Positions 25,223 through 48,417 of a DNA stretch of 64,000 bases are shown piece after piece. The position numbers were made by a program, and so were the translations under genes. The stretch is from positions 3,224,001-3,288,000 of the forward strand of contig NZ_CP061169.1 of the NCBI RefSeq assembly GCF_011751765.2, written 5' to 3'. Source of the DNA: Paramicrobacterium chengjingii (GTDB taxonomy: Bacteria > Actinomycetota > Actinomycetes > Actinomycetales > Microbacteriaceae). The notes under the pieces were generated by a model. It was not told where the DNA came from, did no database searches, and saw only the letters and a list, made by a program, of their open reading frames with translations. Positions within the stretch are counted from its first letter, which is position 1. Each line of letters opens with the position of its first letter.

Positions 25223-25237
25223 ATGGAGGAGTAGTCA

Positions 25238-26038: not shown

Positions 26039-26080
26039 GTGGACGAAACCACTCAGATATACAGAAAGGCTAGAACGCTC

Positions 26081-28984: not shown

Positions 28985-30586
28985 TTACGCTGACATAGCT
29001 ATTCCCATCCGGCGAGGATCACCACAAGATCGCATCAACCCCGTATCTGGATCGATCGTGATGCCGTCAAAGTTGCCAGTCATGGAGTTCCAGGGCCCGA
29101 TTTCCCGTAGCCAAAGCCGATTCGCACCGGCCCATTTGCGTACTTCCTTGAGAGTAGTGTTTGAGAAACCGGACTCAAGGGTGGTGCCTGGTACCCAGCC
29201 CAGGGCAGGGTCGTGAGGACGAGCGCCGAACCGCGGTTCGGCTACGCTTTGCTCGATTGGCATTTCAAAGTCAATCAGATTCACAAGGTTTTGAATCACA
29301 CATGCCACGAGCGAGACTGAGGGAGATCCGGATACGATCACTGGCTTGCCATCTCGAAGTACCATGCTTGGCGCGAGATAGACGGTGGCCCGTTCGCCTG
29401 GCTGAGGCATGATGCGCTGGAAGAATGACCCACCGCCACTGAGCTGGAAACCCTCCGCGTATAGCCCGTTGACCCACGGCGAGGCCATATGCGAGTGAGT
29501 GAGTGTGGCCACGTTATTATCGGCATCGATTACGGAAATATGTATCGTTCCCGGAGTCGGCGGAGTCTCGTGCGCCGGGCACGCGAGAGTGTCCAATACG
29601 TCAAAGCGTTGACGGGCGTATGCCTTAGACAGGAGCACATCTGTCACTCGCTTGCTCTCACGAACTCGCTTCTCTCGCGGAGGTGCGTAATAGACAGCAT
29701 TATGTGCAGCAATAAGCGCAGAAAGTGTGCGCGGTGACTCGCTTGCGGGCCCCAGCGCAGCCAAGTCGACATTCTCCAGAATATTGAGCGCTTCAACGAG
29801 CTGCATCCCACCATCATCGGGAGGCGCAGACCCCACAATTTCAAGGCCGCGGTATGTACCTTGAATTGGGTCAGCCCATTCAGGGCGATAAGCTTCGAAA
29901 TCTTCCTTCGTGATAACCCCGCCGTCAGAATCGCTGGCGGCGCAAAACTCTCGCGCAAAGTCACCGAGGTAGTAGTCCATGCCCTCGTCGCTTAGCCGCT
30001 CGAGCGTCCGTGCCACGCGTTTTTGAACGAGCGCCTCGCCTGGGCCAACGAGCGAGCCATCACGGAAGAAGACCTCCCTAGACTGCGCATTGCGACCCAA
30101 GTTCTCTCGCGCCCGATATATCTCACCGAAAAGGTAAGGGGAAACAGCGAACCCGTCACGCGCAACGTCGACTGCAGGTTCGAGTAGCCGCTTGAGTGAC
30201 AACGTCCCGAACCGCTTGTGGGCGGCCTCGAACGCTGGCCACCATCCAGGGACAGGAACTCCGCGAGCTCGAGTGAGGTCGGCTCCGCCGAAATCATTCA
30301 GTTCTGTAAGCGGAGCATTGATGTTTCCTGAGAGGTAGGAGGCCTTCTGCGAACCGGCTTCCCGGTACACGAGAGAGATGCCTCCTGTCAGGGACGTCAT
30401 GTGCGGTTCTGTAACCAGCTGTGTTGCGGCAACTGCCAGTGCGGCGTCGAGTGCGTTGCCTCCATCGCGTAGCACCTCCACTCCAGCCGCGACGGCGATA
30501 GGCTCAGAGCTCACTACCATTCCCTCTGTGCCCGTAGCTACCTGTTTAGAGCCGTAGTGCCCAGGGATTGCGTGCTGACTTTTCAC
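28985..30586 (-). CDS. Gamma-glutamyltransferase family Ntn-hydrolase, cytoplasmic
   Basis: 533 residues from a GTG at 30586, with AGGAC upstream. GGT family: MVVSSEPIAVAAGVEVLRDGGNALDAALAVAATQLV at the start and PGTIHISVIDADNNVATLTHS at the autoprocessing site, where Thr347 would be the nucleophile (TIH instead of the common TTH). Downstream PSMVLRDGKPVIVSGSPSV and the C-terminal glycine-rich loop fit. No signal peptide is seen, unlike classical secreted GGT, so it should act on imported compounds. Linked by a 13-base gap to a peptide ABC transporter. Likely hydrolyses a gamma-glutamyl or related amide bond; true substrate unknown. Confidence 0.85.
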   Translation of the reverse strand: MKSQHAIPGHYGSKQVATGTEGMVVSSEPIAVAAGVEVLRDGGNALDAALAVAATQLVTEPHMTSLTGGISLVYREAGSQKASYLSGNINAPLTELNDFGGADLTRARGVPVPGWWPAFEAAHKRFGTLSLKRLLEPAVDVARDGFAVSPYLFGEIYRARENLGRNAQSREVFFRDGSLVGPGEALVQKRVARTLERLSDEGMDYYLGDFAREFCAASDSDGGVITKEDFEAYRPEWADPIQGTYRGLEIVGSAPPDDGGMQLVEALNILENVDLAALGPASESPRTLSALIAAHNAVYYAPPREKRVRESKRVTDVLLSKAYARQRFDVLDTLACPAHETPPTPGTIHISVIDADNNVATLTHSHMASPWVNGLYAEGFQLSGGGSFFQRIMPQPGERATVYLAPSMVLRDGKPVIVSGSPSVSLVACVIQNLVNLIDFEMPIEQSVAEPRFGARPHDPALGWVPGTTLESGFSNTTLKEVRKWAGANRLWLREIGPWNSMTGNFDGITIDPDTGLMRSCGDPRRMGIAMSA

Positions 30587-30599
30587 GAATTTTCTGTCC

Positions 30600-32375
30600 T
30601 CACTGCGAGTTGCGAGACGTCTCAGACGATTGCGCGAGGTTGCGACGCGCGCGCTGCTTCACTGGATCCGGTAGAGGAATAGCGCCGATAAGCGCCCTCG
30701 TGTACTCGGAAGACGGCGAGCCGAGAACATCCACCGTCCTTCCTGTTTCAACTGCCTCGCCGTCCTTCATCACGAGAATTCGATCTGAGACGGTTGAGAC
30801 CACGTACAGGTCATGGCTGATGAATACGCACGCGAAGTTGTGCTCCTTTTGCAGACGGGCCAGGAGATCCAGGACTTTCACTTGCACCGTGACATCGAGT
30901 GCAGATGTTGGCTCATCTGCTATGAGCACGTCGGGACGGTGCGCGATGGCACGGGCGATAGCCACGCGCTGCCGCTGTCCTCCTGAAAGCTGGTGACGAC
31001 GTCGCTCAATCCACGTCGGATCCAAGTCGACATCACTAAGAAGTTCAGCGGCCTGTGCGCGTAGCTTCCGTCTATCCCGCAACGTCCCGCCGCGCCACAG
31101 CGGTTCAGTGACGATTCTCCATAACGGGAGGCTCGGATCCAGGGACGATGTCGGATCCTGGAACACAGCGCCGACACGTGCAAGAGTTTGGCGACGATCG
31201 CGACGTGATTGCCCAGTCATCTCGATGCCACCGAGCGTGACGATACCCGACGTGATGGGGGTCAGACCGAGGATCGATCGGGCAATCGTCGATTTGCCCG
31301 ATCCTGACTCGCCCACGATGCCTAATGTTTCACCGCGAGAGACCTCGAGAGCGATTCGGTTTACTGCCGCCCTAGTCTCTGGAGCTGTTCGCCTTCTTCT
31401 CGTGCGCTTCTGCTGGTACTGGATCGTGAGTTCGCTGGTAACGAGAGCCGGTTCAGTCGCGGGCGCGTTAGCTTCCAGTACAGCTACACCCACCCTCTTC
31501 TCGGGCGGACCGCTCGAATCGGTGACCGTGAGGGCAGTATCACTGGCACCGTGGAGCGTCTGGGCCGCTCCGAGAAGCATCCGCGTGTATTCATGTTGAG
31601 GATCTGCGAAAACTGAAAAGACATCCCCTGTCTCAACGACTTCCCCGTGCCGCATCACGACGATCGAGTCGGCAATGTCCGCGACGACGCCCATGTCATG
31701 GGTCACAAATATCATCGCCATGTTTTCTTGCTCCACGAGCTGACGGAACATAGTGAGCATCTGACGCTGAGTGGTCACATCGAGCGCGGTCGTCGGCTCA
31801 TCGGCGATAAGAAGTTTCGGCTTCCACGCCACTGCACCTGCTGCCATTACCCTCTGCCGTTGTCCACCCGACAATTGGTGCGGATAACGCTCCAATATTC
31901 CGTTGTGTGACCCCAATCCGACGGCTTCGAGAAGCTCTTGGGGAGTGCGTGCCCTGCTCCTGGTCTCGGGCGTCACATGTGCACCGATTGCTTCCTCGAG
32001 GAAGTCACCAATCGTGTGCAGCGGGTTTAGTGCTGTCATGGGTTCCTGGTAGACGCACGCAACCTCGGCACCGCGGATTCGCCGCATCGCGCGGTCAGAT
32101 GTCTCCAGCAGTTCATTACCATCAAAGCGGATCGACCCACTGCATTCTCCCCCGGGTGGCAGAAGCTGTGGAATCGCCATGGCGGTCATTGATTTTCCTG
32201 CACCAGACTCGCCGACGATCGCGACCACTTCGCCTTTGTGCACGTCGAAGCTAGCTTGATGCACCACGCCGGTGCCGGACATAGAAATGCGAAGATCTTC
32301 GACTCTCAGAAGCACGTCATCCTTCGTCGATGAGCTGACGGCTTCGGGAGAGGCGGCCCTCATTTGATCATTCAT
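30600..32375 (-). CDS. Fused dipeptide/glutathione-type ABC ATPase (GsiA-like, two domains)
   Basis: 591 residues with two complete oligopeptide ATPase domains. Domain 1 (about 20-275) has GESGAGKS and [10 protein letters not shown]; domain 2 (about 315-565) has GESGSGKS and [10 protein letters not shown], each followed by I-A-D-E-P-T. Fused DppD-DppF proteins of this layout include GsiA of the E. coli glutathione importer. Starts 2 bases after the downstream-facing permease gene's stop, so one transcript with 32378-35862. Confidence 0.92.
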
Positions 32376-32377
32376 CT

Positions 32378-33265
32378 TCAGACATCCACCTTCTGCGTGA
32401 GCTCTCGGCGAGTGCGTCGACGGGAGCGGACCTCGCCGCGAGGGTCAAGAAGGTCCCTCACCCAGTCCGCTACATAGCCGAAAACTACGAGGAGAAACAC
32501 GAGGACAATGCTCGGAATCAACAGCTGCCACGGGCTCTGCATGAAATATTGTTGGCCGGTCGCGATCATGAGGCCAAGCGACGGCTCAGGCGGAGTAATA
32601 CCGAGGCCCAGGAAGCTCAAACCTGACTCAAGCCCAACGGCAAAGGCAAGTGTGACGAACGCTTGAGCGAGCACTAGCGGGCCGACTCCTCGTAGTAATG
32701 GTCCTTTGATGACCTGCCAGCGCGTCCCTCCAAACAACTCGGCTGCCTCCACGTAAAGCGCGCTTCTAAGCGACAGAATCTCTCCGTACACGAGACGCGC
32801 AAAAGCAGGAAAGAACACGATGGCGGAAATCGCGACAACGGTCACATTGCTAGCGCCGTATAGAGACACGATGAGCATCGCAAAAACGAGCGTCGGGATC
32901 GCGAGGATGATTTCAACAAAGCGCATGAGGAGCAGATCGGCTATACCTCGAAAATAAGCGGCGAGGATGCCGATGAGGGTACCGATGATTACGGCCAGAA
33001 GTGTGCCGGCGGCGCAGACGATGAGTTCGGTTCGAAGCCCAAAGACGAGACGAGCAAATGCGTCGCGACCAAGATTGTCTGTCCCCAGTAGATGTCCCGG
33101 GTTTAAGACGGGCGCGAATGCGTTCTGAACATCCTGTTCAAGCGGATTCGTATCTGTGGTGAGTGGGTAGATGAAGATGAAGCAGATGACAAGGAACGTA
33201 ATGCACGTGGTGATGAAAAGCCCCGGGCTCGACTTGTTCCACAAAGTTCGGGCGAGATTACGCAT
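32378..33265 (-). CDS. Peptide ABC transporter permease, DppC/GsiD type
   Basis: 295 residues, six predicted membrane helices, with the DppC N-terminal extension and the motif LGTDNLGRDAFARLVFGLRTEL, diagnostic of this subunit. The EAA loop reads YVEAAELFGGTRWQVIKGPLLRGVGP. Pairs with the DppB-type permease 4 bases upstream. Confidence 0.92.
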   Translation of the reverse strand: MRNLARTLWNKSSPGLFITTCITFLVICFIFIYPLTTDTNPLEQDVQNAFAPVLNPGHLLGTDNLGRDAFARLVFGLRTELIVCAAGTLLAVIIGTLIGILAAYFRGIADLLLMRFVEIILAIPTLVFAMLIVSLYGASNVTVVAISAIVFFPAFARLVYGEILSLRSALYVEAAELFGGTRWQVIKGPLLRGVGPLVLAQAFVTLAFAVGLESGLSFLGLGITPPEPSLGLMIATGQQYFMQSPWQLLIPSIVLVFLLVVFGYVADWVRDLLDPRGEVRSRRRTRRELTQKVDV

Positions 33266-33269
33266 TGTG

Positions 33270-34226
33270 CTACCCCTTCACTCGAGGGTCTAGGAACCGG
33301 TATAGAAGGTCGACCACAAAGTTCGACACGATAAAGACGACCGCAAAAACGATCACAATCCCTTGCACGAGTGGATAATCGCGCCCGTTAATCGCGTTGA
33401 GGAGCGTCAGCCCCACACCGGGCCAGTTGAACACCTGCTCGACTAAGACCGTTGCCCCCAGCATCATTCCGAGCTGCAGACCGGATACCGTGACGACAGG
33501 GTTCATTGCGTTTCTAAAGATGTGCCGACGGAACGCTCTCGGTCGCGATAGTCCCATGCCACGAGCGGTCCGAACCCAGTCTTCCCGCCTCACTGCGAGG
33601 ACTGATGTTCGTGTCACCCGACCAAGCATTGCCAAAAATCCAAATGACAGTGCGAGACCGGGGAGAAACGCGTGCCACAGGAATGCTCCGATGCCGTCCT
33701 CGAGCGGCGTAAATCCCAAGGGGGGAAACCATCGAAGGGTAATGCCCAAGAACAGCGACAGGAATATCGCGATAACGAATCCAGGCGTCGATACCGCAAC
33801 GGAAAGAAGCCCAGACAGCACACGATCGAAGACGCTGCCCGGCCAGTTCCCGGCGATCGTGCCAAAAGCAATGCCGACGACGCTTCCAATCACAAGGGAA
33901 ATGATCACCAGAACGATCGTGTTGCCGAAGGGGGCAGCCATCACTTCGCTGACGGGGGCGGAGTATCTGATCGAGTTACCCAAGTCCCCTTTCACAAGGT
34001 CCACCAAATAGACGACATATTGCTCGACAAGCGGACGGTCTAGCCCGAGTTCCTCTTCCAACGCGGCGACAGCGGCGGGATTTACGCCCCCGCCGCCGGC
34101 ACCGCCTTGAAGGATGATGGCCGCGGGCCCTCCAGGCACCAAGTGAAGCGCTACGAAGACTGTCGTAACAACGCCCCATATAGTGACGACACCGAGGCCG
34201 ACACGCGTGAGAATTTGTCGTATCAT
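33270..34226 (-). CDS. Peptide ABC transporter permease, DppB/GsiC type
   Basis: 318 residues, starting MIRQILTRVGLGVVTIWGVVTTVFVALHLVPGGPA, the DppB signature, with ELGLDRPLVEQYVVYLVDLVKGDLGNS and EAA-like YVRTARGMGLSRPRAFRRHIFRNAM. Forms the channel with the DppC-type protein. Confidence 0.92.
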   Translation of the reverse strand: MIRQILTRVGLGVVTIWGVVTTVFVALHLVPGGPAAIILQGGAGGGGVNPAAVAALEEELGLDRPLVEQYVVYLVDLVKGDLGNSIRYSAPVSEVMAAPFGNTIVLVIISLVIGSVVGIAFGTIAGNWPGSVFDRVLSGLLSVAVSTPGFVIAIFLSLFLGITLRWFPPLGFTPLEDGIGAFLWHAFLPGLALSFGFLAMLGRVTRTSVLAVRREDWVRTARGMGLSRPRAFRRHIFRNAMNPVVTVSGLQLGMMLGATVLVEQVFNWPGVGLTLLNAINGRDYPLVQGIVIVFAVVFIVSNFVVDLLYRFLDPRVKG

Positions 34227-34272
34227 TGCGCTCTCATTCGCATCATGATGAAAGGGATCGAGGCCGAGATAA

Positions 34273-35862
34273 TCAGTCGGTCAGTCGAACGGTCTCGAAG
34301 CTGTACAACGACGAGTAGACGAGCGCCCCGCCAATCGTTGTGAAACCCTCGAGAGAATCGGAGTAGGCAAATGCCGTTGTTCCTTGTCCAGTGGTAACAA
34401 ACGGTACATTCTTAAGGAAAATCTCGCCAAGCTCGTGGTAGATCTTTTCGCGTTCCTCGCCATTAGGGGTCTGCGCCCCTTCCGTCAGCAAACTCGCATA
34501 GAGATCTTCATTAATTCCGTAAGAACGAACAAAGCTCGGTCCGCCGATGAACGCACCGGTCAGCGCGGTGGGGTCGCTCATAGCTGCGGGAGGTCCACTC
34601 AAGAGTAGGTCGTAGTCTCCCGAGTCTCCCTTTGAGATGAGGTTCGCATAGTCACCGGTCACAAGTTTCACGTCGATTCCCACCTCGGCAAGGTCGCTCT
34701 TCACGACCTGCGCTCGCTCCGTGTAACCGAAGTACTGTGAAGTGGTGACGAGATCCAGGCTGAACCCGTCGCCATAACCCGCTTCCGCCAGCAAGTCTTT
34801 GGCCTTTTTCGGGTCATGGGAGAAGTGCTTGGCTTGTTTCTCATCGAAGTAGTCGTTGTCTTCCGGAATCGGTAGACCTCCGCCAGGAACGCCGTAGCCC
34901 AGAGTACCTACCTCGTTCAACGACTCGCGGTCGACCGCATAGGCAATCGCCTGCCGCACTTTGGGCTCTGCGAGTGGCCCCTCCGTGAGGTTGAGCAGCA
35001 AAGCCCCATAGAGCCCGGGAACATGATCAAGCGTGACTCCATCAGTTTGTTCGAGGCTCTGGTAATCAGACGCAGGAACGTAATCGATGAACTGCACCTG
35101 CCCACTCGTGAGCGCTTTGACTCGCGTCTGGGCATCCGGCATGAACGTCATCTCGATCGAGTCGAGTTCGACCTTGTCGGCGTTGTAGAAATCAGGGTTG
35201 GGTTCGAGCGTGAAAGATACGCCCTTGCTGTACTCGGTGATCATGAACGGGCCGGCTCCGACTGGGCTGCCTTCACTATCGAGCGGGTCTTCCGGAACGA
35301 TGGCCGACAAAGGATCGGCCAGCACCTGCGGAAATGCCGTCTGCGGCGTGTCAAGAGTTACGATCACGGTTGAGTCGTCTGGTGTGTCAATCTTTGTGAC
35401 GCCTGCGAACTGGCTCTGGTAAGTGGCACCGTTTTCTGGCTCAGCGAAGTACTCGAATGTTCTCTTGACATCTGCGGAAGTCAAGCTGTCACCATTCGAG
35501 AACTTGAGTTCAGGCCGAAGCGTAAACGTGTAATTGAGCCCGTCCTCTGAGACCTCGAATTCTGAGGCCAGCGCAGGAGCAGGCTGCCCATCCGAGTCGT
35601 ACTGAAGAAGGCCTCGACGAACAAGTGCGACGACCTCCTTTGCCGCGGACCCCTGGTCCACGCCAGTCTTGATGTCAGTCGGTTCAGCAGACAGGCCGTA
35701 GCTGAGTGTTTGATCCGAGGCTGCGCCGCTTGATGATGTGTCTGTTGCGCAGCTGGCCAGTGAGATTGCGAGCGCAGTCGCAGTGGCCAGCACTGCAACC
35801 TTCCCACCTAATGAGCGAGTCGAACGCGCTGCGCTCGGGTCACGACGAGTGGTCTTCACCAT
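34273..35862 (-). CDS. Peptide-binding lipoprotein, SBP family 5 (DppA/GsiB type)
   Basis: 529 residues, AAAGG 5 bases before the ATG. Lipobox SLASC at about residue 38 after a basic Tat-free signal. Mature part follows SBP_bac_5: LKFSNGDSLTSADVKRTFEYF (the family signature), VGAGPFMITEYSKGVSFTLEPNPDFYN, AIAYAVDRESLNE, LLAEAGYGDGFSLDL. First gene of the operon that ends with the gamma-glutamyltransferase; the LacI operators at 36062-36122 lie about 200 bases upstream. Confidence 0.9.
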   Translation of the reverse strand: MVKTTRRDPSAARSTRSLGGKVAVLATATALAISLASCATDTSSSGAASDQTLSYGLSAEPTDIKTGVDQGSAAKEVVALVRRGLLQYDSDGQPAPALASEFEVSEDGLNYTFTLRPELKFSNGDSLTSADVKRTFEYFAEPENGATYQSQFAGVTKIDTPDDSTVIVTLDTPQTAFPQVLADPLSAIVPEDPLDSEGSPVGAGPFMITEYSKGVSFTLEPNPDFYNADKVELDSIEMTFMPDAQTRVKALTSGQVQFIDYVPASDYQSLEQTDGVTLDHVPGLYGALLLNLTEGPLAEPKVRQAIAYAVDRESLNEVGTLGYGVPGGGLPIPEDNDYFDEKQAKHFSHDPKKAKDLLAEAGYGDGFSLDLVTTSQYFGYTERAQVVKSDLAEVGIDVKLVTGDYANLISKGDSGDYDLLLSGPPAAMSDPTALTGAFIGGPSFVRSYGINEDLYASLLTEGAQTPNGEEREKIYHELGEIFLKNVPFVTTGQGTTAFAYSDSLEGFTTIGGALVYSSLYSFETVRLTD

Positions 35863-36061
35863 GAAACCTTTCCATTTCTCTCATGCCGACCGGGCACGAA
35901 AGGCTGTAGACGTGCGCTCAATGACGAGCGCCGATGTGATTGCCTGGCTCGAGATACGTTCACCAGGGCAGAAATATTGGGTTCAGACAGGTGGATAGGT
36001 CAGCCTCCTTGCTTCCTCGCCGCTGCTGTGTGCTCACAACAACCGCTTGCCTTGGTTCCCA

Positions 36062-36125
36062 TTTTGGGAACGTTCCCGCTGTATATTGCCTCCACTTTGA
36101 CCCATTTTGGGAACGATGTCAATAT
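36062..36125. promoter_or_regulatory. Paired LacI operators and promoters between peptide importer and LacI gene
   Basis: TTTTGGGAACGTTCCC at 36062-36077 contains the 12-bp palindrome GGGAACGTTCCC. A second site, TTTTGGGAACGATGTCAA, lies at 36105-36122. The shared TTTGGGAACG cores are 43 bases apart, about four helical turns. Leftward TTGACA (36122-36117) and rightward TTGACC (36097-36102)-17-CAATAT (36120-36125) overlap the second site. The same pair occurs before the deglycase operon (43047-43108). The remainder of the 348-base gap 35863-36210 shows nothing I recognise. Confidence 0.7.
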
Positions 36126-36210
36126 GATGGTTCGAGATTTACCAGATGGTGATGAAACGTCATGTGGAGCGGCACGTTTGCTACCATGCGACCGAAGCCT
36201 GGAGGGCCGT

Positions 36211-37311
36211 ATGACACGCGAGTCAGTGACAATCATGGATGTTGCAAGGGAAGCGGGTGTGTCTAAGTCCGCAGCTGCGCGCGTTCTCGCCCGCAATGGG
36301 TCGGCCAGTGCCACAACCCATGAGCGAGTCATGAAGGCTGCGGCTTTCCTAGGCTACCGACCCAATCAGCTTGCACGGTCGATGAAATCGGGGGCCACGA
36401 ACACCATAGGCATCGTCGTTCCGGACGTGATCATCCCATTCTTCTCAGCCATTTTGAGGGGCGTTGCGGACAACGCACGTGCGGCTGGTTTTGAGGTACT
36501 CGTGAGCAACACCGACAATGATCCCGATATTGAGGAACGCTCGCTCGAGTTGTTCGCGGAGAAACGTGTTGATGGAATCGCGATCGCCCCGGTCTTCCAA
36601 CAAGATCCGAGAGCGATCCTCCGACTCGCTGACGAAGGCATGCCCGTTGTGTTGCTCGACCGCCGAATGACCGGGCTTGAGCATTTGCCTTTGGTATCTG
36701 TCGATCATGTCGACGCGGCCGAAAAGGCGGTTGCGGCGTTGGCTGATCTCGGACACGAACGCATCGCGCTCCTCGCCGAATCGGCTCCGGCGCTCGCCAG
36801 ACTTCAAGAGCTCGCTGAGAGCTCCTCAAGCCATCCCCACCTGTCGCTATTACGTCCGTCTGCACAGCGAATCATCGGGTATCTTCGCGCCATTAAACGA
36901 CATGGCATTGAACTTGACGAAGACCTCATCATCCATTCGGGGTACACGACGACTAGTGCGCAGGAGGCGGTGGAACGATTCCTCGCATCTGGCATCGAAG
37001 CCACTGCCCTTCACGCCACCAACGCAGTGCTGACTTCGGGCGCCTATCGTGGGATTCGATCTCGAGGACTATCAGTGCCAGAGGACATGTCGTTTATCGG
37101 CTTCGATGATCAAGAGTGGACAACAATGGTTCAACCCGAGGTCACCGTCGTTGAGCAGCCCAGTCAACAGCTCGGAGCGACGGCGGCGACTGTTCTCACT
37201 AACCTTGTGCGCGGAGCTGCAGCCGATCCGCTTGAGCATCTCCTAGAGGCAGAGCTGCTCATGAGAGATTCGACTGCGAGCCGTGTTCGCCCGTCCATCA
37301 GGCTCGCGTGA
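36211..37311 (+). CDS. LacI-family transcriptional regulator
   Basis: 366 residues from the ATG at 36211, with GGAGGG directly upstream; a longer frame upstream crosses the operators. LacI helix-turn-helix at 7-26 (TIMDVAREAGVSKSAAARVLA) with hinge RPNQLARSMKSG, and effector domain NTIGIVVPDVIIPFFSAILRGV, DGIAIAP, SFIGFDDQEWTTMVQPEVTVV. Divergent from the peptide importer and convergent with the Hyu/deglycase operon. Near-identical TTTTGGGAACG operator pairs precede both, so it most likely controls both. Confidence 0.9.
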   Translation: MTRESVTIMDVAREAGVSKSAAARVLARNGSASATTHERVMKAAAFLGYRPNQLARSMKSGATNTIGIVVPDVIIPFFSAILRGVADNARAAGFEVLVSNTDNDPDIEERSLELFAEKRVDGIAIAPVFQQDPRAILRLADEGMPVVLLDRRMTGLEHLPLVSVDHVDAAEKAVAALADLGHERIALLAESAPALARLQELAESSSSHPHLSLLRPSAQRIIGYLRAIKRHGIELDEDLIIHSGYTTTSAQEAVERFLASGIEATALHATNAVLTSGAYRGIRSRGLSVPEDMSFIGFDDQEWTTMVQPEVTVVEQPSQQLGATAATVLTNLVRGAAADPLEHLLEAELLMRDSTASRVRPSIRLA

Positions 37312-37379
37312 ACTCCATCCACGCAGTTGACGCGCAGCCCGCGGCGATCAGCTTCCTTTCACCGTTGAAGGAGACCGCA

Positions 37380-39059
37380 CTACTCTGAGGTCGTTTCGCT
37401 CCCTCGTGATTTCACATATTCGGATGCCGTCTCAGCAGAGATCTTCGCGTCGCGAAGGTCTTGCTCGACACTTGTCTCGTCTCGGTCACGAGGCTCCCCA
37501 TAACCGCCAGCTCCAGCCGTCTCGATCGAGACGACATCGCCAGTTTTGAGGACGGAGTATCCATGATCGATCGGCTGAGCACCCTCGCTGAGCACGCATG
37601 TTGCCGAAGCTCCTGAGCCTCCGCCAAAGAGTCCCCACGGCTGAGACTTCTGTCTGCTTGTATCGAGCCAGAAGTGAATGTCATCGGCCTCAACTCTGAC
37701 CCGTCGCCGTATTCCAAGTCCTCCACGGAACTCCCCCGTGCCACCAGAGTCGTCTATCAGTTCATACGCCTCGACCATGAGGGGGTACTCGGTCTCAAGA
37801 CTCTCAACCGGCAGATTCGACGTGTTTGTCATATGAACCTGAACGCCGTCCAGTCCGTCTTTTGTGCTTCGAGCCCCGCTTCCCCCACCGATGGTTTCCA
37901 GGTAGACGAAGTCACGAGAGCGCTCCGGATCGCGCCCAGAGAAATGAACCCCAGTGTTCGCACCATTGCTTGCAGCAGTGACACGTGTTGGGACAGCATC
38001 AGCGAGCGCTCCCATGATGAGGTCCACAATGCGCTGACATGTCTCACTCCTCCCGTTCACCGCGGCGGGAGCTTGGCAGTTCACCACCGAACCACGTGGT
38101 GCGTCGATGCGGATGGGGCGATAAAGCCCAGCATTCGGGTCTATATCCGGATCGATGAGCGTCTTCACGGCGTAGTACACGGACGCATACAACCCGGTCC
38201 AGACCACATTGATGCTCGCTCGCACTTGAGGCGGGTTGCCAGCGAAATCAAAGTGCATCTCGTCACCCGCTATAACGATACGAATCTTGAGAGTGAGCTC
38301 GTCGTCAAGTTCCGGGCAGTCAAAGAGGTCCTCGAACTCGTATTCACCGTCGGGAAAATCAGCAATCGCGGCTCGGGTTCGGCGTTCCGTATAGTTGAGG
38401 AGCTCATCGGAGGCGGCCGTGATTGTTGCCACACCGTATCTCTGGCAGAGCTCGCCAAATCGCGTGACAGCAACTCGCAAGGCTGCTTCCTGCGCGCGCA
38501 GGTCAGCTTCTCTCTCCTCGGGAACCTGGCAGTTCAGGAGGATCAACTGCAAAAGCTCATCTTGGGCCACACCGGCGCGAACAAGATGAAGCGGCGGGAT
38601 TCGAATCGCCTCCTGGTAGATATGCGCATGGCCTCGATCGCCAAAATCGGCGTGGTGCGCCAGCGTGGCGGCCCAAGCGACGACCGTTCCCTCCACGAAT
38701 ATCGGCGTGGCCAACACGATGTCCGGCAAGTGCGATCCGCCGCCGGTGTACGGATCATTCCCGATGAAGACGTCGCCTTCGAGAATTTGATCGTCATCGA
38801 ACCGGCTCCGAATGGATGTCACGATTCCCATCAGCGATCCGAGATGGAGTGGCGACCCACCCTCGTCTTGAGCTACTGCCTGGCCAGCGGCGTCGAAGAG
38901 CGAGGCCGTGCAGTCACGTCGCTCCTTGATATTCGGTGAGAAGGCTGCCTTGACGAGGGTCTCGCTCATTTCTTCCACGATCGTCGACATTGCTGCCCCG
39001 ATGACTTCGACGGTCACCGGATCCAAGCCAATTGGTACGGTCACTGCGTTCGCGTTCAT
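37380..39059 (-). CDS. hyuB: Hydantoinase B / 5-oxoprolinase, HyuB-type subunit
   Basis: 559 residues, the usual HyuB length. Family landmarks: VIGAAMSTIVEEMSETLVKAAFSPNIKERRDCTASLFDAAG at the N-terminus, IGNDPYTGGGSHLPDIVLATPIF, LAHHADFGDRG (metal-site histidines) and the C-terminal GGGSGARSTKDGLDGVQVHMTNTSNLPVE and GLFGGGSGASA. With HyuA it makes the ATP-dependent ring opening of 5-oxoproline or N-substituted hydantoins. Last gene of the deglycase operon; 4-base overlap with hyuA. Confidence 0.9.
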   Translation of the reverse strand: MNANAVTVPIGLDPVTVEVIGAAMSTIVEEMSETLVKAAFSPNIKERRDCTASLFDAAGQAVAQDEGGSPLHLGSLMGIVTSIRSRFDDDQILEGDVFIGNDPYTGGGSHLPDIVLATPIFVEGTVVAWAATLAHHADFGDRGHAHIYQEAIRIPPLHLVRAGVAQDELLQLILLNCQVPEEREADLRAQEAALRVAVTRFGELCQRYGVATITAASDELLNYTERRTRAAIADFPDGEYEFEDLFDCPELDDELTLKIRIVIAGDEMHFDFAGNPPQVRASINVVWTGLYASVYYAVKTLIDPDIDPNAGLYRPIRIDAPRGSVVNCQAPAAVNGRSETCQRIVDLIMGALADAVPTRVTAASNGANTGVHFSGRDPERSRDFVYLETIGGGSGARSTKDGLDGVQVHMTNTSNLPVESLETEYPLMVEAYELIDDSGGTGEFRGGLGIRRRVRVEADDIHFWLDTSRQKSQPWGLFGGGSGASATCVLSEGAQPIDHGYSVLKTGDVVSIETAGAGGYGEPRDRDETSVEQDLRDAKISAETASEYVKSRGSETTSE

Positions 39060-41116
39060 GAGGCTTCCCCAATCGTGATCACTAGATTTCCCAACGAATC
39101 AACGATGCATTCGTCGCCGGGCAACAACACCGTTGTGGTGTCCATCTGCTCGATAATGGCCGGCCCGGAGATTCTGTTTCCAGCACGCAGAGCATCACGC
39201 CGATAGACGGGGCACTCTCGATAACCCGTCTCCGGGTCGAAATATGCTTCACGCCCGCTGTCGAGCGCCTGGGACGGGTCGGCCCCCGCGCCTTCGGATC
39301 GTGTCAGCTCAATTGTGGAGCTCTTCCCGACCGCTTGAACTCGGAACGTAACGATTTCGAGCACCGAGTTTTCCAGGCGATAGCCGTACATGCGTTCGTG
39401 GGCAGCGTGGAACTGGTCGATGACGGTTGCCAACGCCTCTGCGTCATTGAGCTTCTCGGGAACCTCGATCGGCAGTTCGAAGTTTTGCCCGGCATACCGC
39501 ATATCGAGGCGCCGGACGATCTTCCGGTCACGAGAATCGATGTTCTCGTCGTCGAACCAGGCAGCTGCCTGCCCTTCGAGCTCTGAGAATGCGGCGTCGA
39601 CCCTTTCGGGCCTGTTCTGGTCCACACGGGTAATCTTCGACTGCATGAAGTCGGCCTTGACGTCAGTCATGAGCAGCCCGAGGGCTGATTGTGCACCAGG
39701 AATCTCTGGAATCACGACGGTGTCGATTCCGAGTTCTCGTGCAAGTCGAGACGCGTGCAAGGGGCCTGCGCCGCCGAACGGAACGAGCGCGTAGTCTCGG
39801 GGGTCGTATCCCCGCTGCACAGAGATGACTCGAATTGCTCGTGCCATATTCGCTGTGACGACGCGGAGCATTCCCAGTGCCGCCTCTTCCGGCTCGAGGC
39901 CCAGGGGAGCACCGATGGCGCGAAGCGCAGTCACGGATGCCTCGCGATCGATCTTCATCTGCCCATTGAGGAGGTACTCGGGGTTGAGAAAACGAAGAAC
40001 GACGTTGGCATCAGTCACGGCTGGCTCGGTTCCATGTCCGTAGCACGCGGGCCCGGGGAATGCGCCTGCGCTTTGAGGTCCAACTCGAAGGTGTCCGCCG
40101 GTGTCGATCCAGCCGAGTGAGCCTCCACCCGCACCGACCGTGTGGATGTCGAGCATGGGGGAACGGATCGGCCGTCCTTCAAACTCCATACCGGAGGTGA
40201 TCTTCGGCTCGCCGTTCTGCACGAGTGACACATCGGACGACGTGCCGCCCATGTCAAAAGTGATGATGTCAGGATGCCCCGCAGCTGCGCAGATCTGCGC
40301 GGCTCCCACAACACCTGTACTCGGGCCAGAGAGCACGAGTCGCACGGGCATCTCCTCCGCAGTTGCGAAGGGAATGACGCCCCCATTACTTTGCGTCACG
40401 TGAGGCGTCGCGGTGAGGCCATCTTCAGCGAGCCGCTCGCGCAGCCGGGAGAGATAGCGGAAGATGACGGGACCAACATATGCGTTAGTCACCACCGTCG
40501 AGAGTCGCTCGTACTCGCGGAATTCAGGGAGAATTTCGGACGACAACGAGATGTGAACGTTGGGGAGAATTTCCCGAATGATCTCAGCGACACGTCGTTC
40601 GTGCTGCGGTGCGAGGAAGCTGTAAAGAAAACAGACGGCGATGGACTCAGCACCCTGCTCGCCGAGAGCTCGAACGGCATCCCGCGTCTCCTGCTCGTTC
40701 AGCGCAATCTCGATGTCGCCGGTGTGTCGAACACGCTCAGTAACCTCGTACCGAAGCTCGCGCGGCACGAACGGCACTGGCTTGTCAGCCTGCGGGTTGT
40801 ACATGTGAGGGCGTCGACCCCGACCAAGCTCAAGGAGGTCTTTGAACCCGCGTGTCGTGATGAGCCCTGTCGTAACTCCGCTGTGCGTGAGCAGAGCGTT
40901 GGTGCCTACCGTTGTTCCGTGAGCAAAGTACCCAACATCAGTGATGCTGCGATCGCCGACCTGGCTGAGAAGTTCGGTCACTCCAGCGAGGATTGCTCTG
41001 CCTGGGTCGTCAGGGGTGCTCGATACCTTCCGAACGTGTACTTCACCCGTCGTCTCATCGAAAGCGCAGACGTCGGTGAAGGTTCCGCCTGTGTCCACTC
41101 CGATACGTAAACTCAT
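39056..41116 (-). CDS. hyuA: Hydantoinase A / 5-oxoprolinase, HyuA-type ATP-binding subunit
   Basis: 686 residues. N-terminal actin-like ATPase motif MSLRIGVDTGGTFTDVCAFDE, then AHGTTVGTNALLTHSG, TFDMGGTSSDVSLVQNG and LVPFGGAGPLHASRLARELGI, all typical of HyuA/oxoprolinase A. It phosphorylates the lactam or amide carbonyl for hydrolysis with HyuB. Overlaps both neighbours by 4 bases. Its placement between a fructosamine-kinase-like gene and hyuB, rather than in a hydantoin cluster, is unusual and shapes the reading of the whole regulon. Confidence 0.92.
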   Translation of the reverse strand: MSLRIGVDTGGTFTDVCAFDETTGEVHVRKVSSTPDDPGRAILAGVTELLSQVGDRSITDVGYFAHGTTVGTNALLTHSGVTTGLITTRGFKDLLELGRGRRPHMYNPQADKPVPFVPRELRYEVTERVRHTGDIEIALNEQETRDAVRALGEQGAESIAVCFLYSFLAPQHERRVAEIIREILPNVHISLSSEILPEFREYERLSTVVTNAYVGPVIFRYLSRLRERLAEDGLTATPHVTQSNGGVIPFATAEEMPVRLVLSGPSTGVVGAAQICAAAGHPDIITFDMGGTSSDVSLVQNGEPKITSGMEFEGRPIRSPMLDIHTVGAGGGSLGWIDTGGHLRVGPQSAGAFPGPACYGHGTEPAVTDANVVLRFLNPEYLLNGQMKIDREASVTALRAIGAPLGLEPEEAALGMLRVVTANMARAIRVISVQRGYDPRDYALVPFGGAGPLHASRLARELGIDTVVIPEIPGAQSALGLLMTDVKADFMQSKITRVDQNRPERVDAAFSELEGQAAAWFDDENIDSRDRKIVRRLDMRYAGQNFELPIEVPEKLNDAEALATVIDQFHAAHERMYGYRLENSVLEIVTFRVQAVGKSSTIELTRSEGAGADPSQALDSGREAYFDPETGYRECPVYRRDALRAGNRISGPAIIEQMDTTTVLLPGDECIVDSLGNLVITIGEAS

Positions 41117-41985
41117 TGGATACCTGCCTTCGTATTCGACGATTCTTTCTTTGCTGCGCGACCTGCATTTCGCGAGCTGAACGGTCGACCATCACCGAAC
41201 GCGCCGTACCTCGTGCAGACTTGGGCTGCGTGCGCGCTCGCGGACGCAAGCACATCTGAAACTTTTCGTCGGTTCAAGAGACCAACGAGAACACTGGCGA
41301 TAAAAGCATCTCCTGCACCCAAGGTGTCCACAACGCTGATTGGCTCAGCATCCTGCCACATGCCGCTCGAGGACTGTGCAAGGTACGCTCCGTTTCGTCC
41401 CCTGGTAACGAGCGCGTGCTTCGCACCATGCTCAATCGCATAGTGTGCGAGCGCCTCCGCTCCAGCGGCATCCAAGTGGCTTCCCGAGAATGACGCAAGG
41501 TAGAGATGCGGGAGCATCGACTGGAGATCCACACTCTCGAGGGTGTATTTCTCCTCCGAGCCGAAGTCGTAAGATACTTTGCTCTCTTCGGCCATAGCGA
41601 CGACCGACGACCCGAATGTGCCTGCGTATCCACTGTGGACAACGTCGAAATCGCTCATGTTTTCGAAGTGGCTCTCCTTCGGCGAGAACGTGGCAACGTT
41701 GGGCTTGGCTCCGACAAACACTCGATCGGTGTCTACGGTCTTGACCTCAGCAAACGCATTCGGTCCTTGAGCGACTTCGCAGAATTCGGTTCCGACGCCC
41801 TCGCGGCGAAGGCTATCAAGCACATACTGGCCCGATAAATCGTCGCCAAGCACACCCATATATGACGATTCCGCTCCGAGCCTCCGGGCGAACACCGCAA
41901 CGTTGACGGCGTTGCCGCCAGGGTATTCGCGGCCAAGAGTTACATACCGGTCGACGACGTTGTCGCCAACTCCAAGCAGCCGCAT
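41113..41985 (-). CDS. PfkB-family kinase of fructoselysine kinase (FrlD) type
   Basis: 290 residues. The opening GVGDNVVDRYVTLGREYPGGNAVNVAVFARRLG is the FrlD form of the PfkB signature (G-D-N-x-V-D ... Y-P-G-G-N-A-x-N-V-A-V). DTLGAGDAFIASVLVG supplies the catalytic Asp. FrlD phosphorylates O6 of fructosamines, the Amadori products of glucose. The start is adjacent to the deglycase stop with no gap. A second kinase of this type lies at 47489-48400, so the two may serve different glycated substrates. Confidence 0.85.
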   Translation of the reverse strand: MRLLGVGDNVVDRYVTLGREYPGGNAVNVAVFARRLGAESSYMGVLGDDLSGQYVLDSLRREGVGTEFCEVAQGPNAFAEVKTVDTDRVFVGAKPNVATFSPKESHFENMSDFDVVHSGYAGTFGSSVVAMAEESKVSYDFGSEEKYTLESVDLQSMLPHLYLASFSGSHLDAAGAEALAHYAIEHGAKHALVTRGRNGAYLAQSSSGMWQDAEPISVVDTLGAGDAFIASVLVGLLNRRKVSDVLASASAHAAQVCTRYGAFGDGRPFSSRNAGRAAKKESSNTKAGIQ

Positions 41986-43005
41986 TCAATACTCCACTTT
42001 GTACATGTAACGCCTGACCGACGTGTCGTGCCCACGCCGTGCGGCCACGTGGTCGAGAATACGTCGTTCTGCACTCATGAGTGCGAGCACGCTGAGGTCG
42101 CCGCGTGCTTCCGGCTTGATTCCGGGAAGCGAGAGGGATGCTGTGTCAACGACCCCAAGCTTGTTGGTGTACGTCTCGCCGAAGCGAACAACGCGCTCGC
42201 CGAGCGACCGAGTCGCGTCTTCCGCGAGCAGAACGACAAGCGGAACATCTTCGCCGATCATTTCGAGCGGACCGTGGAAGAAGTCAGCTCCGTTGATCGC
42301 CGCCGAGTGCATCCACTGCATCTCCATGAAGTAACACCATGCCATCATCTTTGCCATGCCATAGGCCGGTCCGGCCCCGACAATATAGCTGCGTGGGGAG
42401 TCACTCAGAATATCTGCGATGCGCTCTCCCGCCTCGGCGACCTCGTCTTTCGTAGCTCGAAGTGCTCCAGGAAGGGCAGGGATAGAGGCACGAATTTCGG
42501 CGGCCTTCTGCGTTTCTCCGGCACCTTCGAGGAGTGCCAGCGCAACAAGCTCGTTGAGAACCAGCTTGGGCTCGGTGATCGAGATCGTGTCGGGGTAGTC
42601 GAGGTGAAGGTCTCCGAGACGTGAGAGCCCGTTGTCACCCTGACGCGAAATGCCGATAACCGTCGCCCCTGTCGACTTCGCGAACTCAGCAGCTGCCACC
42701 GTCTCCGGTGTGTTGCCGGAGTGCGATGCTGCCACGACCAATGCGTTCGGACCAAGGTCAGCGGGGTTTCGCGACGTCAGCTCTGCACTTGTGATCCGCG
42801 TTGCACCAAAGTCGCTTGTGTACCGGTCGAGCAGCTCGAACGCGGGATAAGTCCCGAAGTGGGACCCTCCGCAGCCAACCAGATAGACATGGTCGAGTCC
42901 CTTACTCTGGACGGAAGATACGAATTCGCGGATTTTGGAATCCTGGTCGATCGCGTGCTGGACGCAGTCTTCGAAATCGTCCGGGACGGGAATGACGTCA
43001 CTCAT
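41986..43005 (-). CDS. SIS-domain fructosamine-6-phosphate deglycase (FrlB type)
   Basis: 339 residues with two SIS domains. VYLVGCGGSHFGTYPAFELLDRY and VVAASHSGNTPETVAAAEFA form the phosphosugar site; MEMQWMHSAAINGADFFHGPLEMI carries the conserved Glu and the His-Gly-Pro loop of FrlB; the chain ends RRYMYKVEY, the FrlB-type tail. FrlB cleaves fructoselysine 6-phosphate to lysine and glucose 6-phosphate. First gene of the operon with kinase, HyuA and HyuB. Promoter region holds the LacI operator pair 43047-43108. Confidence 0.87.
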   Translation of the reverse strand: MSDVIPVPDDFEDCVQHAIDQDSKIREFVSSVQSKGLDHVYLVGCGGSHFGTYPAFELLDRYTSDFGATRITSAELTSRNPADLGPNALVVAASHSGNTPETVAAAEFAKSTGATVIGISRQGDNGLSRLGDLHLDYPDTISITEPKLVLNELVALALLEGAGETQKAAEIRASIPALPGALRATKDEVAEAGERIADILSDSPRSYIVGAGPAYGMAKMMAWCYFMEMQWMHSAAINGADFFHGPLEMIGEDVPLVVLLAEDATRSLGERVVRFGETYTNKLGVVDTASLSLPGIKPEARGDLSVLALMSAERRILDHVAARRGHDTSVRRYMYKVEY

Positions 43006-43046
43006 ATGAGCCTTACACCTTTGTTCGCTGTCTGCATTTAGTCAGT

Positions 43047-43108
43047 GTTTGGGAACGGTCCCAAATTTCTATATTCTTTAGTGAACACGATTTTGGGAAC
43101 GGTGTCAA
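43047..43108 (-). promoter_or_regulatory. Paired LacI operators before the deglycase-HyuAB operon
   Basis: TTTGGGAACGGTCCCAAA (43048-43065) is an inverted repeat with 7-bp arms. TTTTGGGAACGGTGTCAA (43091-43108) matches the 36105-36122 site at 17 of 18 bases. The cores are 44 bases apart, mirroring the 43-base spacing at 36062, and lie in the same order relative to the leftward operon. TTGACA (43108-43103, minus) is a -35 inside the outer site. No other feature is seen from 43109 to about 43270 within the 349-base gap 43006-43354. Confidence 0.72.
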
Positions 43109-43303
43109 ACATGACGCGACGCACCTCCACCACGCGTCGACGGCCATTCGCGCTTGGGCAAGCAGGCGACCACACGCCAACGGCGGGTTTGGCGCACGTT
43201 GAGCCGACTATGACGAGACCGTCGTTGCATGTCGTTACATTTCCGTGACCATAAATATCGATGACAGGGTTTTGCAATCGCGCATGGGCGGCTAATGTAT
43301 AGC

Positions 43304-43354: not shown

Positions 43355-44359
43355 TTGCCTGCCAACGCCGCATTCACCGATTCGACCACTATTGAGAAGC
43401 AGCTCACCGCAGCCAGGGAGGCCATCGCCTCGCTCAAGGGCATCTCGCGAGTTGTGCTCACCGCATGCGGCGGGTCGCACGCCGTCATGATGCCATTTGA
43501 GTACTTCCTTGACACAAACGCATCGTCGTTCGAAGCCAAGGTCATCAACGCTGCCGAGTTCACATCACGAAACTCCTCTCGTATCGACGAGAGCACCGTC
43601 GTCATTCTGTGCTCGCACTCCGGAACCACGCCTGAAACAACCGAAGCCGCACGCTTTGCGCGCTCACGCGGCGCACTCACTGTTGCCTTCACCTTCGACC
43701 CTGCATCCCCTCTGGCCGAGGCTTCCGAACACGTTGTCGCGTACCAACACGGTGAAGGCAAGAGCGAGGCACACATTGCTCCAACCCTCATCCTGCGTCT
43801 TGTCGCCGGCATTCTCGATGATCGTGATGGCACTACGCTTGCCGATTCTGCAACCAAGGCGACAGCCACTCTCAATGACCGCGCCCCGGCGATTCGCGCC
43901 GATTACGCGGACAGAGCTAACCATTGGGGCTTTGAATCTCGCCGCGAACCGTTGATCTACACGATGGCTTCCGGCTCCAACTACGGTTCTGCATATTCAT
44001 TCGCAATCTGCCTGTTGCAAGAAATGCAATGGGTTCACTCGGCGGCTATCCACTCCGGAGAGTATTTCCACGGTCCATTTGAAGTCACCGACTTTGATGT
44101 TCCTTTCATCGCGCTCATCGGTCTCGACGAGACCCGACCAGTTGAGCAGCGTGCCGTCGACTTTCTCCAGAAGTACTCAAAACGTGCGCTCGTCATCGAC
44201 GCGCAGGAATTCGGACTCAGTGACGTCGACGAGAGAGTCCGTCCTGTCTTCACTCACATCATCTTCAACATCGTTCTCCGTGCCTACGCAGACGCCCTCG
44301 CTGACCACCGTGGTCACCCGCTGAGTGTTCGTCGCTACATGTGGCGCATGGAGTACTGA
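43355..44359 (+). CDS. frlB: Fructosamine-6-phosphate deglycase (FrlB), SIS domains
   Basis: 334 residues from a TTG start at 43355, supported by AAAGGGG 5-6 bases upstream. SIS motifs LTACGGSHAVMMPFEYFLD and VILCSHSGTTPETTEAARFA, the catalytic-region EMQWVHSAAIHSGEYFHGPFE and the C-terminal RRYMWRMEY all match FrlB. It splits a 6-phosphorylated Amadori compound into glucose 6-phosphate and the free amine or amino acid. Heads an operon with the same order as Bacillus subtilis frlB-O-N-M-D. Confidence 0.88.
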   Translation: MPANAAFTDSTTIEKQLTAAREAIASLKGISRVVLTACGGSHAVMMPFEYFLDTNASSFEAKVINAAEFTSRNSSRIDESTVVILCSHSGTTPETTEAARFARSRGALTVAFTFDPASPLAEASEHVVAYQHGEGKSEAHIAPTLILRLVAGILDDRDGTTLADSATKATATLNDRAPAIRADYADRANHWGFESRREPLIYTMASGSNYGSAYSFAICLLQEMQWVHSAAIHSGEYFHGPFEVTDFDVPFIALIGLDETRPVEQRAVDFLQKYSKRALVIDAQEFGLSDVDERVRPVFTHIIFNIVLRAYADALADHRGHPLSVRRYMWRMEY

Positions 44360-44395
44360 TCTCTGGCAGATCGACACTGGAATGAAAGGGACGCA

Positions 44396-45679: not shown

Positions 45680-45684
45680 CATCG

Positions 45685-45716
45685 GGGGCCGTCGGCATGA
45701 CAGTGCCGACGGCCCC
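45685..45716 (+). terminator. Intercistronic hairpin after the binding-protein gene
   Basis: GGGGCCGTCGGCA (45685-45697) pairs perfectly over 13 bp with 45704-45716 around a 6-base loop, followed by a pyrimidine-rich stretch. Such attenuating or mRNA-stabilising hairpins are common after the binding-protein gene, keeping it in excess over the permeases. Confidence 0.65.
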
Positions 45717-45754
45717 GCTGACCCTTCTCTTCTGCTCAGAAATGAGGTGCACTG

Positions 45755-46636: not shown

Positions 46637-46637
46637 C

Positions 46638-47486: not shown

Positions 47487-47488
47487 AA

Positions 47489-48400: not shown

Positions 48401-48417
48401 GCACGAGAGGCGAAATT

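Follow-up and report, generated by a model that had tools for sequence, protein, structure and literature searches.

A HyuAB pair akin to Ti-plasmid genes in a predicted fructosamine regulon of Paramicrobacterium chengjingii: a candidate route for lactamised Amadori compounds

Background

Parts of two reports (PMC4231840, PMC8262997) place glutamine-derived Amadori compounds such as santhopine in decaying plants, tobacco roots and crown galls, and a portion of the first of these equates fructosyl-glutamine (deoxyfructosyl-glutamine, DFG) with santhopine and assigns its catabolism to Agrobacterium plasmids. In the Salmonella fra system, as a section of PMC9609667 has it, FraE removes the amide of fructosyl-asparagine, after which FraD and then FraB act. 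Here we describe two leftward operons of the soil-type actinobacterium Paramicrobacterium chengjingii in which genes of the fructosamine deglycase and kinase families stand together with HyuA and HyuB, predicted subunits of an ATP-dependent lactamase, and with an ABC importer. They lie in a stretch of 64,000 nt (NZ_CP061169.1, 3,224,001-3,288,000; hereafter the window, in whose positions all coordinates are given). A secondary amine beside the side chain of glutamine readily cyclises to a lactam, and lactamised Amadori compounds are usually treated as end products. The mechanism of fructosamine deglycases should leave such a lactam untouched; since the lactam nitrogen should be unable to form the required imine, ring opening would have to precede deglycation.

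Agropinic acid, N-mannityl-5-oxoproline, is the lactam that mannopinic acid forms, and its import is said to be the subject of a structure paper by Marty et al. from 2019, known to us by title. Going by the title of a paper by Chilton et al. from 1995, the chrysopine-family opines are reportedly of the Amadori type. HyuAB pairs on Ti plasmids have been proposed, in parts of the two sources concerned, as openers of the succinamopine and succinopine lactams (PMC6733357) and of rideopine lactam (PMC8554961); according to a passage in the former, pTiChry5 is a chrysopine-type Ti plasmid. Among the matches listed in a search of the open-licence literature we found no paper linking HyuAB to Amadori compounds.

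Gene content of the two operons

Operon 1 (43005-37380, minus strand) consists of an FrlB-like SIS deglycase gene (41986..43005), a gene for a predicted FrlD-like fructosamine 6-kinase (41113..41985), HyuA (39056..41116) and HyuB (37380..39059). The junctions measure 0-4 bases, with no gap between SIS and PfkB and overlaps of 4 bases at both PfkB/HyuA and HyuA/HyuB. The genes, strands and junctions are thus as described in the first-pass annotation of this DNA. The SIS protein (PF01380) has 3eua as its best match of solved structure (E 7e-55), a putative fructose-aminoacid-6-phosphate deglycase. Its residues E228 and H244, 16 apart, are conserved in 21/22 aligned rows, and the remaining row, L003, reads X (labels of this form denote fetched comparison stretches; G000 is the 3.62-Mb genome of the window itself). 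The same 16-residue spacing separates E214 and H230, which we take to be the catalytic residues of FraB. The kinase is a PfkB protein (PF00294) with a GAGD motif (D226), and its best NCBIfam match is fructoselysine 6-kinase. As both proteins fall below the equivalog cut-offs for E. coli FrlD and FrlB (147.5 of 247 bits for the kinase, 106 of 430 for the SIS protein), we regard them as relatives rather than equivalogs.

Judged by domains and catalytic residues, the HyuAB pair belongs to the ATP-dependent lactamases, and the SIS and PfkB proteins to the fructosamine families. In an alignment to chain 6yra, D8 and D288 of HyuA (PF01968, PF05378, PF19278) coincide with D11 and D295 of CapA, while D49, H110, D113 and H135 of HyuB (PF02538, 574 bits) form a tetrad that coincides with the metal ligands of CapB. 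Chain 6yra carries the label 5-oxoprolinase/hydantoinase; its 696 and 581 residues and its loop fit CapAB as presented in part of PMC8453981, and it is probably CapAB itself. Mutating the CapB metal ligands abolishes caprolactamase activity, according to the same part of that paper. The best scored models of the window's HyuA and HyuB are N-methylhydantoinases and caprolactamases, with scores below the NCBIfam CapA and CapB equivalog cut-offs (614.5 and 264.4 of 1000 bits).

A motif NIKERxD stands next to the metal ligand D49 (NIKERRD at residues 43-49 of the window's HyuB). It is present in all 30 readable HyuB rows linked to frl-type genes, in 7/7 aga-type rows and in 4 related rows, and absent from 9/9 unrelated ones; the HyuB of L003, which lacks its N-terminal part, was excluded from the count. 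Leu38 of the hydrophobic pocket of CapB aligns with Glu46 inside this motif, which suggests a pocket suited to a polar substrate. The genome holds a second HyuAB pair (G000:C1:3451773-3453326, L107), 39% and 30% identical to the one described here and without NIKERxD.

Operon 2 (35862-28985, minus strand) begins with a substrate-binding lipoprotein (SBP5, 34273..35862; PF00496) and continues with a B-type permease (33270..34226; PF00528, PF19300), a C-type permease (32378..33265; PF00528), the fused double ATPase of an Opp-type importer (30600..32375; PF00005 twice, oligo_HPY; best models YejF and GsiA, below their cut-offs) and a protein of gamma-glutamyltransferase (GGT) fold (28985..30586). 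This second leftward operon had been recognised before and described as holding a GsiABCD-like importer; the operon stands, and the likeness to Gsi does not. The best solved relative of SBP5 is AgaA (6hlx, E 1e-88), far ahead of the next, YliB (1uqw, E 6e-42), which we take to be GsiB, and SBP5 is 36% identical to Ti AgaA against 27% to a second Ti binding protein.

A shared LacI operator

Between the operons a LacI-family regulator gene reads rightward (36211..37311, plus strand). Its reading frame is open from 35977, and the true start is probably ATG 36211, because the LacI-type DNA-binding domain (PF00356, residues 85-130) begins at residue 85 of the long frame; regulators 47-67% identical to it occur in seven related loci. 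A near-palindrome, TTTGGGAACGNTCCCAAA, is found as paired predicted operators on the plus strand upstream of SIS (43048..43065, with 0 mismatches, and 43092..43109) and between SBP5 and LacI (36063..36080 and 36106..36123). Across the whole genome only five places match the pattern with at most 3 mismatches, four of which are these sites, and the reversed pattern, searched as a control, gave 1 match. The same operator pair precedes both operons in five Microbacterium loci, one Aeromicrobium and one Nesterenkonia locus (L004-L009 and L012; L003 is cut off and was left out), that is, 14/14 promoters at a threshold of at least 12/17 positions per site and without a shuffled control. A different tandem near-palindrome stands before SIS in nine Streptomyces/Streptosporangium loci. 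Given the four paired sites and the 14/14 promoters in relatives, the earlier proposal that the two operons share one LacI regulon is well supported by the DNA.

Conservation and phylogeny

Comparison loci were fetched by kinase alignment alone, and HyuA therefore had no influence on their choice; they are the best 80 of 474 confirmed, 79 of them distinct. HyuA lies within the fetched stretch in 28 of these 79, which we judge to be far above chance, and we reject a chance neighbourhood. The first-pass annotation would have been undermined by the lack of a conserved neighbourhood, and the opposite was found. The order SIS-kinase-HyuA-HyuB is kept in 25 of the 28; a Rhodospirillales genome (L078) has kinase-SIS-HyuA-HyuB, and in L049 and L061 HyuA-HyuB lies upstream on the same strand with a reverse GntR gene between it and SIS-kinase. 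The HyuA-bearing loci belong to Actinomycetota (Microbacterium, Aeromicrobium, Nesterenkonia, Streptomyces, Streptosporangium, Solirubrobacterales) and Pseudomonadota (Bosea, Acetobacteraceae, Luteimonas, Sphingobium and others). In Bacillota, plasmid pBEH4 of Priestia filamentosa (L096) has SIS-HyuA-HyuB-PfkB-GntR, a separate assembly in which the kinase is an FrlD of Bacillus type.

The occurrence of the cluster is patchy. HyuA matches at E <= 1e-170 were found in 3/299 Microbacteriaceae genomes, including that of the window, and in none of the four other genomes of the genus listed. FrlD-like kinases (E <= 1e-40) occur in 6/396 genomes of a sample from the same phylum, and the five of these loci from other genomes (3.7-3.9 kb each) contain SIS and kinase without a HyuA match. 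In this sample the cluster is rare, and plain frl pairs exist without HyuAB.

Trees were made of HyuA (51 rows) and of the kinase (83 rows), with the short duplicate loci L001, L002 and L082-L085 omitted and with plasmid HyuA rows picked by hand (19 of 919 records with a match). Linkage is slightly undercounted, because a Terrarubrum plasmid (L091) has SIS-PfkB about 10 kb from its HyuAB; the HyuA tree scores it as not frl-linked, and the kinase tree does not include it. The window's HyuA falls in a clade of 36 rows (support 100/100) that contains all 18 actinobacterial frl-linked rows and 8/13 of the other frl-linked rows; the HyuA of octopine/mannityl-opine Ti plasmids branches from inside this clade. 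Not included in it are the frl-linked HyuA of pTi14-818c (pTiChry5 type), Priestia, Sphingobium, GS6 and Rhodospirillales. Kinases linked to HyuAB occupy four places in their tree: an actinobacterial clade, a proteobacterial clade, Priestia among the Bacillus FrlD, and pTi14-818c alone. Each tree requires at least five changes of linkage, gains or losses, with the caveat of some long branches and uncertain placements. A single origin with strict co-inheritance does not fit these trees. Such repeated assembly of HyuAB with SIS-kinase argues strongly for a connection between their activities.

Kinship to Ti-plasmid regions

HyuA and HyuB of the window are 52-54% identical to the pairs on the octopine-type Ti plasmid NC_002377 and on pAoF64/95, where they adjoin an Opp-type importer and an FAD oxidoreductase. 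These Ti pairs are among the nearest plasmid homologues; the very top ones are from Paracoccus and Terrarubrum. The Ti genes are reportedly the agaABCD and agaEFG of Lyi et al. (1999), and the FAD oxidoreductase is presumably AgaE. The window thus has an AgaA-type binding protein and HyuAB of the Ti clade, but no orthologue of AgaE was found in its genome (best match 31%, partial, 61 bits), and as AgaE is missing the cluster is not an aga system. SBP5 matches occur in 12 of the 28 HyuA loci (seven of Microbacterium, Aeromicrobium and Nesterenkonia, five of Bosea). The best one from each of these and from pTi14-818c (67%) is 35-67% identical to Ti AgaA, against 24-31% to the second Ti binding protein; L031 and L069 have an additional binding protein of that second type.

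In eight proteobacterial loci (L031, L039, L069, L070, L077, L078, L080 and L081, from Bosea, Acetobacteraceae, Rhodospirillales and an alphaproteobacterial metagenome-assembled genome) an AgaE-like oxidase, 56-60% identical to Ti AgaE, and SIS-kinase surround a single HyuAB pair. This suggests that one locus and one lactamase may serve both mannityl and fructosyl substrates there. On the simplest reading of these arrangements, a single lactamase would open N-sugar-5-oxoprolines and would be coupled with an oxidase where the product is mannityl, with kinase and deglycase where it is fructosyl, or with both.

A Ti plasmid also carries the complete combination. On pTi14-818c the order is HyuAB-SIS-FrlD-Opp importer-AgaA-like protein. 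Its HyuA-HyuB-SIS-kinase segment is found at 100.0% identity in 6 Agrobacterium records, itself and KX388536 (pTiChry5) included, and at 82-84% in 4 Neorhizobium records, where one match only (EC2-8) reaches over the kinase. In pTiChry5, likewise, the four genes continue into an Opp importer and a binding protein, and they are preceded by a putative glutamine amidotransferase, which in the pTi14-818c copy matches PF07090. Two further modules adjoin (L116, KX388536 46827-88511), one of LacI, FAD oxidoreductase and an amino-acid-type ABC transporter, the other of LacI, SIS-PfkB-peptidase and a polyamine-type ABC transporter, so that three modules stand side by side on pTiChry5, each of likely Amadori type. 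The first-pass annotation knew of no described operon with this combination; the combination is present on this sequenced plasmid, while the open-licence literature yielded no functional description of it.

The GGT-fold protein

The last protein of operon 2 was previously read as a cytoplasmic GGT homologue, GGT being known to act on gamma-glutamyl bonds. It matches PF01019 with 262 bits and misses the cut-off of the gamma-glutamyltransferase model TIGR00066 (248 of 357.85 bits). The nucleophile is retained as Thr347, with Thr in 11/11 close homologues; the aligned residue of 2e0w is Ala, presumably because 2e0w is the T391A mutant. No signal peptide was seen by eye, which makes a cytoplasmic location plausible. 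The residues that bind the gamma-glutamyl group, which we take to be R114, S462/S463 and D433 in E. coli GGT, are replaced in this protein and its close homologues by motifs common to all 11. We therefore reject a plain GGT function; the homology and the catalytic threonine stand, and the protein need not act on gamma-glutamyl bonds. Fixed motifs of the subfamily are GTIH, THSHM, GFQLSGGGSFFQR, YLAP and SGSPSVS, common to 9 Streptomyces/Streptosporangium and 2 Luteimonas copies, and lacking in the remoter relatives in L069 (32%) and L022 (27%).

The gene is present in 5/18 searched genomes that have the cluster (6 copies), each time beside it by coordinates, taking the contig of L007 to be the same one. 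In the phylum sample only the window's own genome has it at E <= 1e-100 (1/396). The gene is genuinely tied to the pathway but is not a constant part of it. By analogy with FraE, we tentatively propose, at somewhat less than even odds, that it is an amidohydrolase converting fructosyl-glutamine to fructosyl-glutamate; the glutamine amidotransferase of pTiChry5 perhaps performs the same deamidation.

Neighbouring genes

Back to back with operon 1 stands a divergent operon (43355-49871, plus strand) that the first-pass annotation does not mention. It opens with a second FrlB-like SIS deglycase (43355..44359; PF01380; fructoselysine-6-P deglycase, 111 bits at a cut-off of 430), followed by an FrlONM-like sugar-type ABC importer (44396..47486; SBP_bac_1 and two permeases), a second FrlD-like kinase (47531..48400, the start approximate and the frame open from 47372; PF00294), which groups with Bacillus FrlD (100/97), an FrlR-like GntR/UTRA regulator (48418..49140) and, last, a HAD phosphatase. 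As far as the kinase this is the frlBONMD order of Bacillus (L060, L067, L072, L076), and 43355-49140 unites deglycase, sugar-type binding protein, two permeases, kinase and GntR regulator as in frlBONMD-R. On gene content, then, the genome holds an ordinary fructosamine operon plus an unusual one, back to back. A third FrlD-like kinase match lies elsewhere in it (G000:C1:2785656-2786456), with one TAG inside the matched stretch.

Further out, 50005-56625 appears to be a separate sugar-acid pathway (3-oxo-tetronate kinase, class II aldolase/decarboxylase, DeoR regulator, DRL-type oxidoreductase, MFS transporter and amidohydrolase). At 24566-28909 (plus strand) lies a putative catabolic operon with, in a row, an RraA-like protein, IclR, a 6-phosphogluconate-dehydrogenase-like/DUF1932 protein, a class III CoA-transferase and a short protein with a citrate-synthase C-terminal domain.

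Proposed pathway and alternatives

The kinship to the aga region, with FrlB and FrlD in place of an AgaE-type oxidase, makes N-(1-deoxyfructosyl)-5-oxoproline the likeliest substrate. We consider it likely that operons 1 and 2 serve the uptake and breakdown of this compound, the lactam of a glycated glutamine, and probably also of its open relatives fructosyl-glutamine and fructosyl-glutamate. The AgaA-like binding protein and the Opp-type importer would bring in N-fructosyl-5-oxoproline. HyuA would activate the lactam carbonyl with ATP, and the metal enzyme HyuB would open the ring to give N-fructosyl-glutamate; less securely, the GGT-fold amidohydrolase would reach the same intermediate by stripping the side-chain amide from fructosyl-glutamine. 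The FrlD-like kinase would then phosphorylate O6, and the FrlB-like deglycase would release glucose-6-phosphate and glutamate. Gene content, operon structure, the shared operator, the catalytic residues, the kinship to Ti opine-lactam genes and the recurrence of the cluster are what the sequences show; from them we infer the substrates and the order of the steps. The same substrates, with HyuAB opening the lactam first, had been suggested before, and at the level of the substrate class the Ti kinship of HyuAB and of the binding protein, the pTiChry5 set, the repeated joining or loss and the operator pair speak for that suggestion.

Several observations weigh against this pathway. The SBP5-type binding protein is matched in only 12/28 HyuA loci and in none of the 9 Streptomyces/Streptosporangium loci nor in the Priestia plasmid stretch; an MFS transporter is present in L017, the one Streptomyces/Streptosporangium locus scanned, and in the Priestia stretch. 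The GGT-fold gene is missing from 13/18 of the searched genomes with the cluster. In 51/79 kinase loci the fetched stretch has no HyuA match, so HyuA is not generally needed for fructosamines, and L021, L022 and L029 combine an AgaE-like match (48-49%) with FrlBD without a HyuA match. Conversely, the Microbacteriaceae stretches L105 and L106 carry HyuAB of the same clade and an SBP5-type importer, with no FrlBD match within 18 kb; in L106, the one of the two scanned, a DAO oxidase adjoins HyuAB, and these are possibly actinobacterial agropinic-acid-like loci. Finally, the reading presupposes the aga gene roles given above and the standing of deoxyfructosyl-5-oxoproline (dfop) as an opine of the chrysopine family.

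Among the alternatives, the one that survives best, although we hold it unlikely, is that HyuAB acts on another ring of a glycated compound, such as a glycated hydantoin, or a diketopiperazine derived from a peptide that was glycated at its N-terminus and taken up by the peptide-type transporter. N-methylhydantoinases and caprolactamases are the family members with the best scored models, the importer is of the peptide class, and a GGT-fold protein would fit peptide processing. Yet the nearest plasmid homologues include the Ti pairs that stand next to an importer of AgaA type, SBP5 is nearer to AgaA than to any solved peptide-binding protein, and NIKERxD separates these HyuB from the N-methylhydantoinase chain 7hk5 as well as from the 9 unrelated rows. 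The resemblance of SBP5 and HyuAB to genes of the Ti agropinic-acid region raises a second alternative, in which agropinic acid itself or another N-mannityl opine lactam is degraded and not a fructosyl compound. This we find improbable, since FrlD and FrlB act on fructosamines, which have the ketose form, and neither operon has an oxidoreductase to convert a mannityl amine; with no AgaE orthologue in the genome, agropinic acid is rejected as the main substrate. Slightly less probable still is that FrlB and FrlD process some ordinary fructosyl amino acid, while HyuAB recycles the free 5-oxoproline that arises from the released glutamine or glutamate. In its favour, the family is known to include 5-oxoprolinases, according to part of PMC8453981, and the compared chain 6yra, which seems to be CapAB and not a proven 5-oxoprolinase, gives no argument against it. 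On the other side, 5-oxoproline is not specific to Amadori catabolism, and the repeated tight linkage to kinase and deglycase and the AgaA-like importer would go unexplained. That HyuAB was simply carried along without a functional link, Hyu genes being common in bacteria, is very improbable, given that the linkage recurs in 28/79 kinase-selected loci, extends to three bacterial phyla and shows at least four gene orders, and that the operator pair is shared.

If the fructosyl-5-oxoproline pathway holds, a dedicated ring opener would explain how bacteria gain access to the carbon and nitrogen of lactamised Amadori compounds, HyuAB genes that are widely annotated only as 'hydantoinase/oxoprolinase' would gain a testable substrate, and actinobacteria would be linked to the opine catabolism of Agrobacterium plasmids. 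More broadly, we give roughly even odds to the view that these compounds have a dedicated bacterial route, built up more than once by combining an opine-lactam hydrolase with fructosamine kinase and deglycase, in which the NIKERxD HyuB are lactamases specific for N-sugar (and N-alkyl) 5-oxoprolines and the GGT-fold subfamily is a fructosyl-glutamine amidohydrolase.

Comparison with known systems

Operons 1 and 2 share an SIS deglycase and a PfkB kinase with B. subtilis frlBONMD and E. coli frl, but those pathways have no HyuAB, AgaA-like importer or GGT-fold protein. The soc/moc Amadori and mannopine genes concern fructosyl-glutamine catabolism, and NC_002377 carries SIS and 'fructoselysine 6-kinase' genes, presumably the moc genes; unlike the window, this SIS-kinase module has no HyuAB inside. 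In the Salmonella fra system, so far as the section cited above describes it, amide removal precedes kinase and deglycase and yields glucose-6-P and an acidic amino acid, as proposed here. However, aspartate forms no five-membered lactam, and FraE is a periplasmic asparaginase whereas the GGT-fold candidate would be cytoplasmic. The window's HyuAB keeps the ATP-site Asp residues and the Asp-His-Asp-His metal tetrad of the ATP-dependent lactamase family, to which CapAB, the N-methylhydantoinases and the 5-oxoprolinases belong; it differs from CapAB in scoring below the CapA/CapB cut-offs and in having Glu46 at the position of CapB Leu38.

Two further close systems are found on Ti plasmids. All core parts of the window cluster (HyuA, HyuB, SIS, FrlD, Opp importer and binding protein, the last 67% identical to Ti AgaA in the pTi14-818c copy) are common to pTiChry5. 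There the gene order differs and the regulator is of the LysR type; as to the pTi14-818c copy, its HyuA is not part of the 36-row clade, and its kinase branches separately. The aga region of NC_002377 and pAoF64/95 has, like the window, an Opp-type importer with an AgaA-type protein, a HyuA/HyuB pair and a nearby LacI regulator, and in both cases, we assume, the substrate bears a lactam ring on its glutamate part. It differs in having an FAD oxidoreductase beside HyuAB where the window has the SIS deglycase and kinase, and presumably in a sugar part that is mannityl and not fructosyl. By this analogy, uptake and ring opening in the cluster would run as in aga, and fructosamine phosphorylation and deglycation would be coupled to them.

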